The notes under the pieces: generated by a model
Databases searched by the model: none
What the model was told of the DNA's origin: nothing
The model's input: only the letters and a program-made list of their open reading frames with translations
Program-made: the position numbers and the translations under genes
In this document: positions 3,521 through 40,546 of the stretch, in pieces
How the letters are laid out: each line of letters opens with the position of its first letter
How positions within the stretch are numbered: position 1 is the stretch's first letter
IMG/VR virus record: IMGVR_UViG_3300031576_000089
Span: 1-46,625 of that record
Source: a virus
Reading direction: 5' to 3' (one strand)
Length of the DNA: 46,625 nucleotides

Positions 3521-4701
3521 TGGCGAAGATGGACTACCCCATATCGGTGACGCAAAAGCTCTGCATGCGATGTGGGGAGACAAAGCCGGCCTATCAATTC
3601 TGCCGCAATCGGCAGTCTAAAAGCGGCCTCCAGACCTATTGCAAGACGTGTCAGTTTGCCGAGCGCAACCCCAAACCGCCCCTGCCGACGATCCCCGCAT
3701 CGAGCGTTCCGGCACTTGATTCGCTCGAGCAGTATCCGATGAGCGAAGTGCCGCCAGGCATCTTGAACGGCGTCAAGGTGCCGCGCCAAGTGCATTCGCC
3801 GTGCGCCGGCATGTGGACGTGGCGGAACAAGAAGAATTGGTGCGTGATCGCGCTACACCATTCTTCGGAGCCGGCAAAGATGGCCGGCACGCCAGCTGGC
3901 GACGCTTGGATCAAGCAAGAGAAGGCGAAGTGTTCCGAGCGCGATTGGTTGCGTGAGCATCAGTTGGACTTTACCATCCGGACTGGCGACCCGTTTTTCA
4001 GTAAGTTCAACCGGGCCGTCCATGTGCAGCCGTGCGAGTACGATCCGGACAAGCCACTGATTAGGGGATGGGACTTCGGACGTGCGCGGCCGGCCTGTGT
4101 GTGGGCGCAACTCTCCGACAAGAATCAACTCCGTATCCTCTCGTCGTATCTCGGCAAGGCAATCAATATCTTCGATTTCGCGCCGGTCATTGTCGCTATG
4201 ACGAATGCCAAATACCCAGGCGCGAAGCTCACGGACTACGGGGATCCGTCCGGCGCGCAGGAAACCGACAAGGGCGCGACGACCGCGATCCTCCTTCATC
4301 AATTCAAGATCAAACTGCACTTCCGGTTCTCCTACGTTGAGGAAGGCTTGAAGCTCATGGAGCAACGGCTTCTCATGGATTCCTCCACCGGAGAGCCGGG
4401 CCTGATTATCAACTCGCAGGACAATCAGGATCTCATTGACGGCTTCGCGGGGGGCTATGTGCTGGATACCGGCGCGTCTGGCAAGGACAACGAGGGCCGA
4501 ATGAAAAACTCTCCGAAGAAGGACGGCTTCTACGAGCATCTGATGGATGCCGCTCGCTACTTGCATATCGGGCTGTATTCGCTCATGCCGGCCGGATCCG
4601 AGGACGATGAGCCATGGAAGGGTATTGGGCTGTGGCGTAGCAACGACCAGCACGCGGCGCATAAGCGCGATCGGGATAACGTTGGAGAATTTTGTACATG
4701 A
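3520..4701 (+). CDS. Terminase nuclease half with N-terminal zinc finger
   Basis: 393 residues. Residues 15-46 form CMRCGETKP, a GLQTY turn and CKTC, the zinc finger usually seen in phage HNH endonucleases. A Pro-rich linker at 50-80 follows. From about 85 it matches the second half of a large terminase, with RNase H-type acidic residues D185 (RGWDFG), D242 (YGDPSG) and D343 (LMDAARY). The ATPase half is at 2488-3132 in the same reading frame, separated by about 390 bases containing stops. Translation could also begin at an internal ATG at residue 74 (MSEVPPG), which would drop the finger. Confidence 0.85.
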   Translation: MAKMDYPISVTQKLCMRCGETKPAYQFCRNRQSKSGLQTYCKTCQFAERNPKPPLPTIPASSVPALDSLEQYPMSEVPPGILNGVKVPRQVHSPCAGMWTWRNKKNWCVIALHHSSEPAKMAGTPAGDAWIKQEKAKCSERDWLREHQLDFTIRTGDPFFSKFNRAVHVQPCEYDPDKPLIRGWDFGRARPACVWAQLSDKNQLRILSSYLGKAINIFDFAPVIVAMTNAKYPGAKLTDYGDPSGAQETDKGATTAILLHQFKIKLHFRFSYVEEGLKLMEQRLLMDSSTGEPGLIINSQDNQDLIDGFAGGYVLDTGASGKDNEGRMKNSPKKDGFYEHLMDAARYLHIGLYSLMPAGSEDDEPWKGIGLWRSNDQHAAHKRDRDNVGEFCT

Positions 4702-5378: not shown

Positions 5379-7607
5379 ATGGGCGAAACAGACAAATCAG
5401 ACAAGGGCATTATCCAGATGGCGGACGATCATCACGATCGGACCCGCTATATGCGCTACGGCTTCGAGCGCGACTGGTACGCCAACCTCCTCTACCGGCA
5501 AGGGCATCAGTGGATCGTGTGGGATGGGATTGCGCGTCGGTTCCGCCAGAAGCAACTTAAATCCTGGGTGCCGACACCCGTTACCAATAAATTCGCCTCA
5601 TCGCTCGATGCGCTGGTATCGCTGGTTCTCCGGGTGCAGCCGGAGATGATGTGGAAGCCGACCGATCCCAACGACGAGGAACAAAAGTCGCTAGCTGAAA
5701 CCTACACGAAAGCAACGGAGCTGGCGAAAGAGCGCACGCTGTTCCGGTTCTGGCGCCATGAGGCCGCTCAGTGGATGGTCTACACCGGCAACGCCTTCCC
5801 GGTCACGTTCTACGATCCGAAAGGCGGATCAGACATGAGCGTGCCGTACCTCAAGTGTGACGTCTGCAATTACGAGGAGATGCCGACCGCGTTTGAGCAG
5901 GGCTGTCCTCAGTGTGAAGGGACCAATACCAGCTATGTGCTTGAGAACGGGATCCCGAAAGAGGAGAAGTTCAAGGGCGGCGAGCTGATTACGGAAGTCG
6001 GCACGCCGTTCGAGATGTTCTTCGATTTCACCGTGACGCGCTGGCAGTTTCTCCAGGAGATCCAACGGATCAAACATCGGCCGGTAGACTACTTCAAACG
6101 GTACGGACCTCGCGGGAAGAAAGTGCAGGCCGGCAGTCCATCCACCATCTCTGAGTTTTATGCCGGTACGCTGGCATATCTCTCGGGATCTCCAGGCATC
6201 GTATCCGGCGCAGCCTCGGCCGGGAAGAATCCCACGGCACCGGAGCATCTATACCTCCGCAAGCCCGACGACGATTTCCCCAACGGCCTCTACCTGATTT
6301 ATTCCGGCGACACCATCCTCGAGAAAAGCGATCTGCCGTGCAAGGACGTCTACGGCAACTACATTCTGCCAGTCAACCATCTCTGCTTTGATCCTATCCC
6401 TGGTTGTGCGCTCGGGAAAACGGTCGGCAACGATCTGCGTCCGAAGCAAAAGCAGCGGAACGAGCTGGAGTCGCTGATCCAGTTGATTACGATGCGCTGT
6501 GCGAATCCGGTGTGGATTGTCCCCTACGGCACCGACGTCGAGGGATTCAGCGGAGAGCCTGGCGCCGTACTGAAGTCCATCCAGATCACGCCGAACGCCT
6601 CCGGGGAGCCGCGCCGGTTGGCAGGAGAGAACATTCCCTCCTCGCTCATCGAGTGGATGAAAAACATTGACGCCGACTTCGAGGAGATCACGTCCATCTA
6701 CGACGTGCTGAAAGGGCAGACGCCTCCTGGGGTGACGGCCGGCTATGCGATCCAGCTCTTGACCGAGCGCGGACAGTCGCGGTGGGGTCCGTTGTTCCAG
6801 CGATGGGAGAACGGCCACACCGATTGGGGCATGGTCGTCACGTCGTATATCAAAAACTATATGCCGGCTGAACAGCTCCGGCTGATGCTCGGAGAGCATG
6901 GCGAATGGGATCTCGAGAAGTTTAAGAGCGATGATCCGATTCGCATGACCCTGACGGTCGAGGCAGGGTCCACGAAGCCGCAGTCCGCGCTGGCCGAACA
7001 AGCCCTGATTGATAGCGCGATCGAGAAGGGGCTGATAGATCCCACGGATCCGGCGAACAAGTCGCAGCTCTTACGTTCGATGGGTCTGAGCCGCTTCGAC
7101 AATCAATCCGATTGGGACATGAAGGACGCCGCTCGAGAGGAAGAAGCCTTCCTACAGATCGCCGCGCAAGTGGATCTGTCGGCCGTCTATCAGAAGATGG
7201 CGTTTGCCGAGGAATCGGGTGACATTGAAGGGATCCAAACGTTGATCGCGGAAGTGAAGAAAACCGAGGAAGTGGCGATTCGCTTCCGTCCTCAGATTGA
7301 CAACAACCTCATCCATCTCTGGAGCCACAAGCGGTTCGCCAAGACCGACAAGTTTCTCCAGATGCCGGCCGAGTGGCAAGCCGTCTGGATGCAACACGTC
7401 GAGGCCACGGCGCAGCGGATCATGCAGGAATCCATGATGGCCGCAGGGATGGGGCAGGAACCGGGCCAGCCGGAGCCGGCCGGTCCTCCGAAACAGAACG
7501 CCGGTCCGCCGAAGCCGGCACAACCCGGTCAGCCGTCGAATGTGGCCGCGTCCCCGCAAGGTGGACACGCGCCGAGTCCGTTGGCGATGCAACCCGCGAT
7601 TCCCTGA
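5379..7607 (+). CDS. Portal protein
   Basis: 742 residues from ATG 5379; a second ATG at 5418 (MADDHHDRTRY) is possible. Size, position after the terminase, and the core (NKFASSLDALVSLVLRVQP, later LLTERGQSRWGPLFQRWE) fit podovirus-type portals, the dodecameric ring through which DNA is packaged. An inserted zinc ribbon near residues 160-180 (CDVC and CPQC) is unusual for portals. The last about 45 residues are Pro/Gln/Gly-rich and disordered. The next gene starts inside its stop codon. Confidence 0.85.
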   Translation: MGETDKSDKGIIQMADDHHDRTRYMRYGFERDWYANLLYRQGHQWIVWDGIARRFRQKQLKSWVPTPVTNKFASSLDALVSLVLRVQPEMMWKPTDPNDEEQKSLAETYTKATELAKERTLFRFWRHEAAQWMVYTGNAFPVTFYDPKGGSDMSVPYLKCDVCNYEEMPTAFEQGCPQCEGTNTSYVLENGIPKEEKFKGGELITEVGTPFEMFFDFTVTRWQFLQEIQRIKHRPVDYFKRYGPRGKKVQAGSPSTISEFYAGTLAYLSGSPGIVSGAASAGKNPTAPEHLYLRKPDDDFPNGLYLIYSGDTILEKSDLPCKDVYGNYILPVNHLCFDPIPGCALGKTVGNDLRPKQKQRNELESLIQLITMRCANPVWIVPYGTDVEGFSGEPGAVLKSIQITPNASGEPRRLAGENIPSSLIEWMKNIDADFEEITSIYDVLKGQTPPGVTAGYAIQLLTERGQSRWGPLFQRWENGHTDWGMVVTSYIKNYMPAEQLRLMLGEHGEWDLEKFKSDDPIRMTLTVEAGSTKPQSALAEQALIDSAIEKGLIDPTDPANKSQLLRSMGLSRFDNQSDWDMKDAAREEEAFLQIAAQVDLSAVYQKMAFAEESGDIEGIQTLIAEVKKTEEVAIRFRPQIDNNLIHLWSHKRFAKTDKFLQMPAEWQAVWMQHVEATAQRIMQESMMAAGMGQEPGQPEPAGPPKQNAGPPKPAQPGQPSNVAASPQGGHAPSPLAMQPAIP

Positions 7608-38376: not shown

Positions 38377-38547
38377 TCATAAAGGCTCGATCGTGAATAC
38401 CGTCTGAGGATATTCCTTCTGTAATTCCTTCCCGCAAGGCAGGCAGATTTTCCCTTCTTGTGATTTTGGCTCACCGTCTGGCCCACGACTCAAAAACCAT
38501 TTGACGATCACCTTAGCCTCGTTCGCATTACAGATAACGCACTTCAT
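38377..38547 (-). CDS. Zinc-ribbon protein
   Basis: 56 residues with CVIC at 3-6 and CLPC near 35-38, a four-Cys ribbon with a hydrophobic strand between (VIVKWFLSRG). ATGA overlap with the nuclease gene upstream. Function unknown; may assist the recombination proteins. Confidence 0.6.
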   Translation of the reverse strand: MKCVICNANEAKVIVKWFLSRGPDGEPKSQEGKICLPCGKELQKEYPQTVFTIEPL

Positions 38548-39491
38548 GTCGGCATGATACCCACGTCCATATTCCAGACTTTCTTTCCGTCCTTCCTGTC
38601 CTGCCACTGGCCGGTGATAATGTATTTCCCCACCAACACCTTCTCCCGGCCCTTGAAGTGTTCCTTGCGCCAGTCGTTCAGTTCTTCCCGTTCCTTGTGC
38701 AGAGGATCCAGCATATACAGCCGGTCCAGCTTGGCCTCGGCCTCGGGATCGTCTGAGACTTCCATCGCCTGACTGCGAAACTCCGGCGCGCAGATATGGA
38801 GAAACTTGCAGTCGCCACAAATGCTTTCGGAATAGGGAATTGCCGGAGGAACCGTGCCGGCTGCAACGTGCGCGTTGACCTGTTCACACTTCTTGAGGAG
38901 CGTTTCGGCGTACTCCATGTCCAGCACGATAAAGACTTCCTTGAGCTGGCCGTTCACCTTATTCTTGAAGATGAACATACCGACCTCGACGCCTTCGAGG
39001 AGATTGTAAACCGTGAGCTGCGCCGGATATTTTTGGTGGTAGTGCTTCTTGGATGCCAGCATATCGGCCATGCTGCTGATCTTCTCGATTGCATACGGCG
39101 AGGCGGATTTCACTTCCAGCGGGAGTGGCTTCGACAAGACCATGAAGGGCCGCACTTGTTCGGGCGCGGCGTCTATCATCCATTGTTCGGTGACGATCTT
39201 GCCGTCAATGGAGCCGGTGAGCTGAAACTTCGGCCAGGAAAAGGCGCGCTGCTGTTCGATAACCCGGATCCCGGCGTCGTCCAGTTCGCGCAAGACGGCG
39301 CGCTCATGGAGGTTGCCTTCATCGAAAATGTATTGGAGGTCTACGTCGTGCAGGATCGCTTCTTTCCAGCGCGTGCGGAGAAACGTCAAATACCGTAAAC
39401 ATGGGTGTCCAAGCTCACTCGCCCGGTTGGAATGCACCGGCCACTGTTCGATCTTCTGCTGCTTGCGCGCTGTTATTCTCTCGATAAACAT
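38544..39491 (-). CDS. Cas4-like PD-(D/E)XK exonuclease
   Basis: 315 residues from ATG 39491. SELGHPC with C31, acidic residue D96 (LTGSIDGK), E126-x-K128 (LPLEVKS), Q158 in the QLTVY motif, and CGDCKFLHIC (C225, C228, C234). Together these match the RecB/Cas4 nuclease core with a four-Cys iron-sulfur cluster. It probably resects DNA ends to supply the annealing protein. Its 5' flank is the whole GGNNN array 1, whose final units GGCGA GGCTC double as ribosome-binding site. Confidence 0.8.
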   Translation of the reverse strand: MFIERITARKQQKIEQWPVHSNRASELGHPCLRYLTFLRTRWKEAILHDVDLQYIFDEGNLHERAVLRELDDAGIRVIEQQRAFSWPKFQLTGSIDGKIVTEQWMIDAAPEQVRPFMVLSKPLPLEVKSASPYAIEKISSMADMLASKKHYHQKYPAQLTVYNLLEGVEVGMFIFKNKVNGQLKEVFIVLDMEYAETLLKKCEQVNAHVAAGTVPPAIPYSESICGDCKFLHICAPEFRSQAMEVSDDPEAEAKLDRLYMLDPLHKEREELNDWRKEHFKGREKVLVGKYIITGQWQDRKDGKKVWNMDVGIMPT

Positions 39492-39496
39492 TTTAA

Positions 39497-39786
39497 GAGC
39501 CTCGCCGTACCATGCTGGACCCAATCCCACCTGACCGAACACGGCCTAAGACTGCCGTGCCTTAACTCACCAAACCATACCCCACTCTACCGAATCCCGC
39601 CCTGACACGACCGACCCGACCGAACCATAACTCGCCCCACCTAACCATTCCATGCCAGGCCAGATCCTGCCGGACCTAACCGCGCTCTACCGGAGACTGC
39701 CACACCATACCTCTCCAAATCCTAGCTTGCCTATCCAGTCCTTGCCACGCCCAAACAGACCGGACCTTTCCTATCCATGCCGCGCC
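39497..39786 (-). repeat. Period-5 GGNNN array 1
   Basis: On the leftward strand, 58 consecutive five-base units without insertion or deletion. By hand count 42 begin with GG, and most of the others keep one of the two G. Units vary: GGCAT GGATA GGAAA, then GGTTA GGTCC and so on. The array fills the entire space from the stop codon of the 39788 gene to the ribosome-binding site of the nuclease gene. Every run of intact units fits a two-tetrad G-quadruplex pattern. Confidence 0.9.
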
Positions 39787-39787
39787 C

Positions 39788-40393
39788 CTAATCGAATTTG
39801 ACGACGGCGAACCGTCCGTAGCTCGGACGAAAATCTCCGACCCCGACCAGCCGGCCGGCATTGTTCACGACTTGGATGAGCAATTCCCGGCTGATATATT
39901 CCGGCAGATTGATCGTGAACTCGAACGACGCCTGCCAGCCTTTATAGAAGGCCGGACGCACGCGGTTGATTCCGTTCTGCTGAATCACGACGCGCCGCTT
40001 ATCGAGGTAATCCCACTCCTTGCTCCCCAAGCTGGCAAGCTCGGTGTCCATGACGATCCCAGCCTTAAACAGATCCATCGCGCTCTTGCGAGGACTGCGC
40101 GGATCCTGGACAAACTTCGCGGCCTTGATAATCGCCTGCCGCAGATATTCCCCCGGCAAGCAGATCTCGTTGGCCTTGTTCCGATAGACGTAGGATTCGA
40201 CATTATCGGTTTTCTTGCTCTTGCTGCCCTTCGCGGATGCGGCCTTCTCGTCCATCGCTTCCGCGTTCCATGCGTGAAACAACAGCGCGGCGGTTCCCTC
40301 GATCGTCACTTTCACCGAATAGGGTTCGCCGGATTGCACCGCGGCCTTCGCACCGTTGCTGGCCGGACCTGTTGCTGGCATCAATTTACCCAT
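39788..40393 (-). CDS. Conserved phage protein of unknown function between GGNNN arrays
   Basis: 201 residues, AAGGGAG before ATG 40393. A strand (YSVKVTIEGTAALLFHAW) is followed by a Lys/Ser-rich insert, then ICLPGEYLRQAIIKAAK, QDPRSPRKSAMDLFKAG, and a C-terminal AGRLVGVGDFRPSYGRFAVV. I recall relatives in phage recombination regions. The late Gly-rich GVGDFRPSYGRF loop after a beta-alpha-beta unit is reminiscent of RAMP-type RNA-binding folds, but this is speculation. It is flanked by array 1 downstream and array 2 upstream. Confidence 0.75.
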   Translation of the reverse strand: MGKLMPATGPASNGAKAAVQSGEPYSVKVTIEGTAALLFHAWNAEAMDEKAASAKGSKSKKTDNVESYVYRNKANEICLPGEYLRQAIIKAAKFVQDPRSPRKSAMDLFKAGIVMDTELASLGSKEWDYLDKRRVVIQQNGINRVRPAFYKGWQASFEFTINLPEYISRELLIQVVNNAGRLVGVGDFRPSYGRFAVVKFD

Positions 40394-40421
40394 CTGCTCT
40401 CCCTTCTATTGTTAAAGGCTC

Positions 40422-40546
40422 ACCGAACCACACCGGACCTCAACCTGCCCATCCCCAACTCAGCGTGCCATGCACAACCTAACCGCGTCGTACCCCGCCC
40501 GGCCTTACCACGCCCTGCCTAGCCAGAGCCTTCCCTGGACTGCCAA
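40422..40546 (-). repeat. Period-5 GGNNN array 2
   Basis: On the leftward strand, 25 units in unbroken register, 18 of them starting GG (for example GGCTA GGCAG GGCGT GGTAA). It starts six bases after the CCA end of the tRNA-like element and ends about 28 bases before the start of the 39788-40393 gene, whose ribosome-binding site follows. Same strand and period as array 1. Confidence 0.9.

Follow-up and report, generated by a model that had tools for sequence, protein, structure and literature searches.

The tract of 25 GGYNN units upstream of a small gene on the minus strand of a virus record (IMGVR_UViG_3300031576_000089, here called the window, that is, the whole stretch of 46,625 bases that was analysed) very probably codes for guide RNA of a VIPR system, in which the gene at 39788-40393 would encode Vipr and the transcripts would guide this protein to the DNA of rival phages. 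By computation we find two such arrays on either side of the gene, a RAMP fold for its product, a tight association of gene and arrays among relatives, a code with one skipped base, and a target for the other array. We favour the VIPR identity because the protein, the repeat rule, the strand and the flanking layout all fit the system (Viral Interference Programmable Repeat) first described in 2026 (PMC13142463; bioRxiv 2026.04.26.720920). In that description, VIPR combines a phage-encoded ancestral RAMP (Vipr) with vrRNAs made of YNNGG repeats, the NN dinucleotides read double-stranded DNA and pass over one target base at each repeat, and rival phages are repressed; the experiments used Escherichia phage SUSP1 and a Pseudomonas fulva prophage, the vrRNAs comprised 9-16 repeats and, after these, a structured 3' tail, and a survey gathered 664 loci of types I-VII (PMC13142463). 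Our literature search found no other paper on VIPR. VIPR is carried by viruses or mobile elements, and the window is a virus record. The arrays are already explained by the published system, and what we add is one guide decoded together with its target, and the possibility that self alleles are spared. The features concerned are as follows.

40420-40544, minus strand: array 2, 25 GGYNN units upstream of vipr, proposed to code for one or more vrRNAs
39788-40393, minus strand: vipr, a 201-residue RAMP (Cas7/Csm3-fold) protein, PHROG 4652
39497-39786, minus strand: array 1, downstream of vipr, with 58 GGYNN units that would code for several vrRNAs
39502-39561, minus strand: units 46-57 of array 1, guide AC AG TA CG TC CA GG TG CC AT AC GA, read with a one-base skip
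38544-39491, minus strand: Cas4-like PD-(D/E)XK exonuclease (PHROG 1990, E 2.5e-28), the presumably spared homologue of the array 1 target

Array 2 runs from 40544 down to 40420 as 25 contiguous 5-nt units in a single, unbroken register; 18 units start with GG and 16 with GGY, position 1 is G in 23 units, and position 3 is a pyrimidine in 23. Our recount agrees with the original prediction on the 25 units, the 18 GG, the register, and the strand and period common to both arrays; the stretch is also the same one, although its coordinates had been set at 40422-40546, 2 nt away from the array. In 20,000 dinucleotide-preserving shuffles of its own 125 bases, the best-phase GG count had a mean of 7.9 (sd 1.05) and a maximum of 13 against the 18 observed, and elsewhere in the 46.6-kb window in-phase GG reaches at most 9 per 125-nt stretch on both strands. 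Array 1 has 42 GG units among its 58, against a shuffle maximum of 23, so that the earlier view of the arrays as unlikely products of chance is borne out. Only one gene, vipr, separates them, as had been claimed, and both lie on its coding strand. Array 2 ends about 26 nt before the vipr ATG, i.e., in the vipr leader, and array 1 directly precedes the exonuclease gene, the ATG of which starts six bases past the array end. The starts of the two arrays are 758 nt apart, which places them mutually out of register, and they do not align: the best identity in a unit-by-unit comparison of NN is 0.46, a value equalled by 23% of unit-order shuffles. Array 2 as a duplicate of array 1 was rejected on this ground, in keeping with the earlier argument against a tandem duplication. 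A protein-coding role of the tracts was also rejected, the long ORFs across them being artefacts of the 5-nt period. No tRNA or Rfam RNA was found within or beside the arrays, a stem-loop 5' of array 2 was no more stable than its shuffles (z -0.5), and single-sequence folds gave no stable structured 3' tail after either tract.

The product of the intervening gene matches PHROG 4652 (E 1.3e-19), a family of unknown function with homologues in Felix O1-like, Gordonia, Mycobacterium and Pseudomonas phages, and has no Pfam match; unlike its PHROG entry, the window protein can be tied to guide arrays. An AlphaFold2 model built on an alignment of 65 relatives reached a pLDDT of 88.2 (32, and not usable, when folded without alignment). 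The listed top PDB matches of this model, by both Foldseek and VIA-align, are all CRISPR Cas7/Csm3-type RAMPs, with type VII Cas7 and Csm3 prevailing among the best solved structures (E 5.6e-07 in Foldseek, Z 11.7 in VIA-align). The protein also contains a conserved glycine-rich, RAMP-like segment that resembles a G-loop, AGRLVGVGDFRPSYGRF. In both respects it is like Vipr, a single small RAMP-fold protein with a G-loop. Beyond the fold, the likeness to class 1 CRISPR-Cas (Cas7/Csm3 of types III and VII) presumably extends to oligomerisation on RNA at a fixed nucleotide step, but the step in the window is 5 nt with GGY rather than 6 nt, and CRISPR repeats, crRNA spacers and other cas effector genes are lacking: no CRISPR array of identical repeats was found in the window and no other cas effector among the nine neighbouring proteins scanned. 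PHROG 1990, to which the Cas4-like nuclease is assigned, is a family of phage exonucleases. No DNA-level relative of the window was found among GenBank phages.

The original prediction had proposed that relatives be checked for a pairing of arrays with the 39788-type gene, and such a pairing is what we see. Every homologue first examined adjoins period-5 GGYNN tracts, including those of Pseudomonas, Salmonella (Felix O1-like), Gordonia and Mycobacterium phages, and across 100 non-redundant loci a tract lies upstream, downstream or on both sides of the vipr relative in 97, the three exceptions including one contig cut off at the gene. Strong tracts have a density of 0.66 per kb up to 1.5 kb from the gene and of 0.011 per kb farther off in the same loci, a 60-fold difference in density, and 3.3 Mb of other phage contigs held only two. 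The strand is as strict, with 229 strong tracts sense and 4 antisense in the clade loci. Over 5,388 units the column composition is G 0.94, G 0.84, C/T 0.91 and then two near-flat positions. Related tracts differ at 0.07 and 0.14 of the two GG positions against 0.24 and 0.25 of the NN positions, even though similarity at NN was the basis on which the pairs were picked. At position 3 the difference amounts to 0.32 of unit pairs, but 0.91 of all units have C or T there. GGY is thus conserved and NN variable, as in VIPR. The earlier reading of the arrays as a general constraint on sequence around the 39788 gene is, overall, partly supported: the rule does belong to that gene, but what it describes would be a row of guide RNAs, not a sequence constraint. 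Two loci deserve mention beside these counts. One contig (L074) carries two vipr genes (4001-4588 and 6286-6873), and a 15-unit GGCNN tract (L243:1749-1823) on an otherwise unrelated contig fetched by an array 1 pattern is perhaps another VIPR locus.

We then ask what the NN dinucleotides encode. The guides of 264 decoded tracts were compared with about 0.86 Mb of the same loci, on both strands and after masking of the tracts. A one-base skip yielded 130 matches with a score of at least 16, many of them common to related tracts or related targets and so not independent events, and a maximum of 26 that corresponds to 16 consecutive units; skips of 0, 2, 3 or 4 bases and guides in reversed order gave 1 to 3 matches each. 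The targets are coding genes of related elements, with the skipped base typically at the codon wobble position. They include the vipr of other elements (the motif KKTDDVES and the C-terminus; guides from L083 and L078), the Walker A of a DEAD-type helicase (L096, L102) and a small gene upstream of vipr (L094). In the first case, the guides of the tracts at L083:4577 and L078:951 spell conserved vipr codons, a case of VIPR against VIPR, and match their own loci less well.

The same code applies to array 1. Three of its 7-unit seeds (units 4-10, 17-23 and 46-52) were scanned in IMG/VR, and the last of these hit 69 contigs, only four of which (L324, L334, L337 and L363) extend by at least two further units. 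All four sites fall at a common position on the antisense strand of homologous genes (37-43% identity to the exonuclease of the window), on the motif SxxGHPC(E/D)RYL (GHPCxRYL), with the skipped base at the wobble position. Units 46-57 agree with the four rival exonucleases at 21-23 of 24 bases, the four being mutually homologous and hence not independent matches, and with the window's own gene at 15 of 24. Exonucleases of this subfamily are uncommon, with matches at E below 1e-10 in just 3 of 50,697 phage records. The other two seeds (units 4-10 and 17-23; at least 69 and 120 contigs) gave no comparable extension and no exonuclease among the matches listed, and the full records of the four target contigs held no match to other array 1 units; within the scan of these three seeds, units 46-57 are the only array 1 guide with a target. 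For each of the eight guides examined (that against the exonuclease and seven from the clade), the match is poorer in the own locus than in the rivals. We infer that units 46-57 recognise the antisense of the Cys motif of the Cas4-like exonuclease in rival phages, the own allele having diverged enough to be spared, and that guides are aimed more generally at core-gene alleles which the element itself carries in a diverged form. Together with the clade matches, this suggests that target recognition by NN with one skipped base operates both in the clade and in array 1. These comparisons add independent computational support for the noncontiguous NNxNNx RNA code in phages beyond those of the preprint's experiments, and yield a concrete guide-target pair with a spared self allele; the sparing in eight of eight guides makes self/non-self discrimination by VIPR directly testable.

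For array 2, two 8-unit patterns and one 7-unit pattern in IMG/VR, as well as two tblastn searches with decoded peptides, returned nothing convincing; in one contig (L116) the match reaches 9 units, within a reading frame of zinc-ribbon HNH-like type, and may be due to chance. We read array 2 as a guide because it shares the rule of array 1.

The alternative that survives best, though we consider it improbable, is an autoregulatory RNA, in which the RAMP would bind GGYNN in the leader mRNA of its own gene and of the neighbour and repress translation, NN being uninformative. The placement of array 2 in the vipr leader and of array 1 in that of the exonuclease, both on the sense strand, is what this model expects. 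It does not account for the NN content, from which targets in other phages can be predicted if one base is skipped but not at any other spacing, nor for the discrimination of own alleles, nor for the relatives in which tracts are solely upstream or solely downstream of vipr. Still less credible is a decoy or a packaging or replication element, i.e., periodic DNA, rather than RNA, bound by a phage DNA-binding protein: the tracts are long, noncoding and near replication and recombination genes, but their strand bias (4 antisense against 229 sense), the RAMP fold of the gene product and the coding nature of the decoded targets all argue against it. A neutral slippage repeat or chance pattern, for which the simple 5-nt period speaks, was rejected and is in the main refuted, its residual probability being negligible, since the units are not copies of each other (Tandem Repeats Finder detected almost nothing on the arrays), shuffles never reach the GG count, such tracts accompany a single gene family in distant phages and 3.3 Mb of other contigs hold only those two examples.

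Under the VIPR reading, which we retain, the minus-strand transcript of each tract would be bound by Vipr subunits every 5 nt, with GGY as a fixed scaffold inside Vipr and NN as the variable targeting code. NN would pair with double-stranded DNA, one target base being skipped between dinucleotides (NNxNNxNN). Once in place, the complex would keep the target gene of competing phages or prophages in the same host from being transcribed. We propose, by analogy with the SUSP1 and P. fulva experiments, that the tracts are transcribed, that Vipr assembles on the RNA at a 5-nt step, and that it then binds DNA and represses transcription of the rival gene. The likeness to the published system (PMC13142463) is extensive: a phage-encoded RAMP of about 20 kDa, GGY/NN (YNNGG) tandem repeats with variable NN both upstream and downstream on the strand of the gene, and a target code with one skipped base, usually the wobble base, aimed at competing phages and at other VIPR loci. 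There are also clear differences. The window tracts have 25 and 58 units as compared to the published 9-16, which implies that several vrRNAs of 9-16 units are cut from one tract or that vrRNAs overlap, and they have no recognisable 3' tail; the one decoded guide has 12 units. Moreover, no conserved accessory (vap) gene was recognised in the clade of the window, where no tested neighbour in the window has a homologue in the other clade loci; this includes the adjoining exonuclease, which has no homologue there and is not conserved beside vipr. It is conceivable, and we propose it tentatively as somewhat short of an even chance, that these loci form a variant of VIPR, with tail-less tracts of 25 to about 140 units that hold several guides of about 9-16 units against core genes (recombination exonuclease, helicase, replication protein, vipr), the element's own diverged alleles being spared. 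If true, self and non-self would be told apart by allele divergence, and not by a PAM or the repeat.

Structured elements were seen around the tracts of some relatives. VIPR loci of Gordonia and Mycobacterium phages contain, beside or between GGYNN tracts, an element of about 45 nt that resembles a tRNA minihelix, with an acceptor-like stem and a T-arm (GGGGTTCGACTCCCC) and with about 10 nt in place of the anticodon and D arms; it looks as though tRNA-processing enzymes cut the ends of the vrRNAs. These elements were located as follows.

L008, positions 6602, 6723 and 6832: minihelix-like elements
L010, positions 1671, 3004 and 3122: minihelix-like elements
L011, position 5692: minihelix-like element

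A repeated, structured-looking insert of about 85 nt separates successive GGYNN tracts in two other contigs (L066:2486-2569 and 2735-2819; L069:4837-4920) and has no Rfam match at gathering score. Staggered arrays and ribozyme-interspersed arrays are mentioned in the published description (PMC13142463), and the insert is possibly one of the latter. Finally, away from the tracts, contigs that carry VIPR contain two type II hammerhead ribozymes and one twister-P5 ribozyme (L081:973-1039 and 1675-1743; L069:1398-1474).
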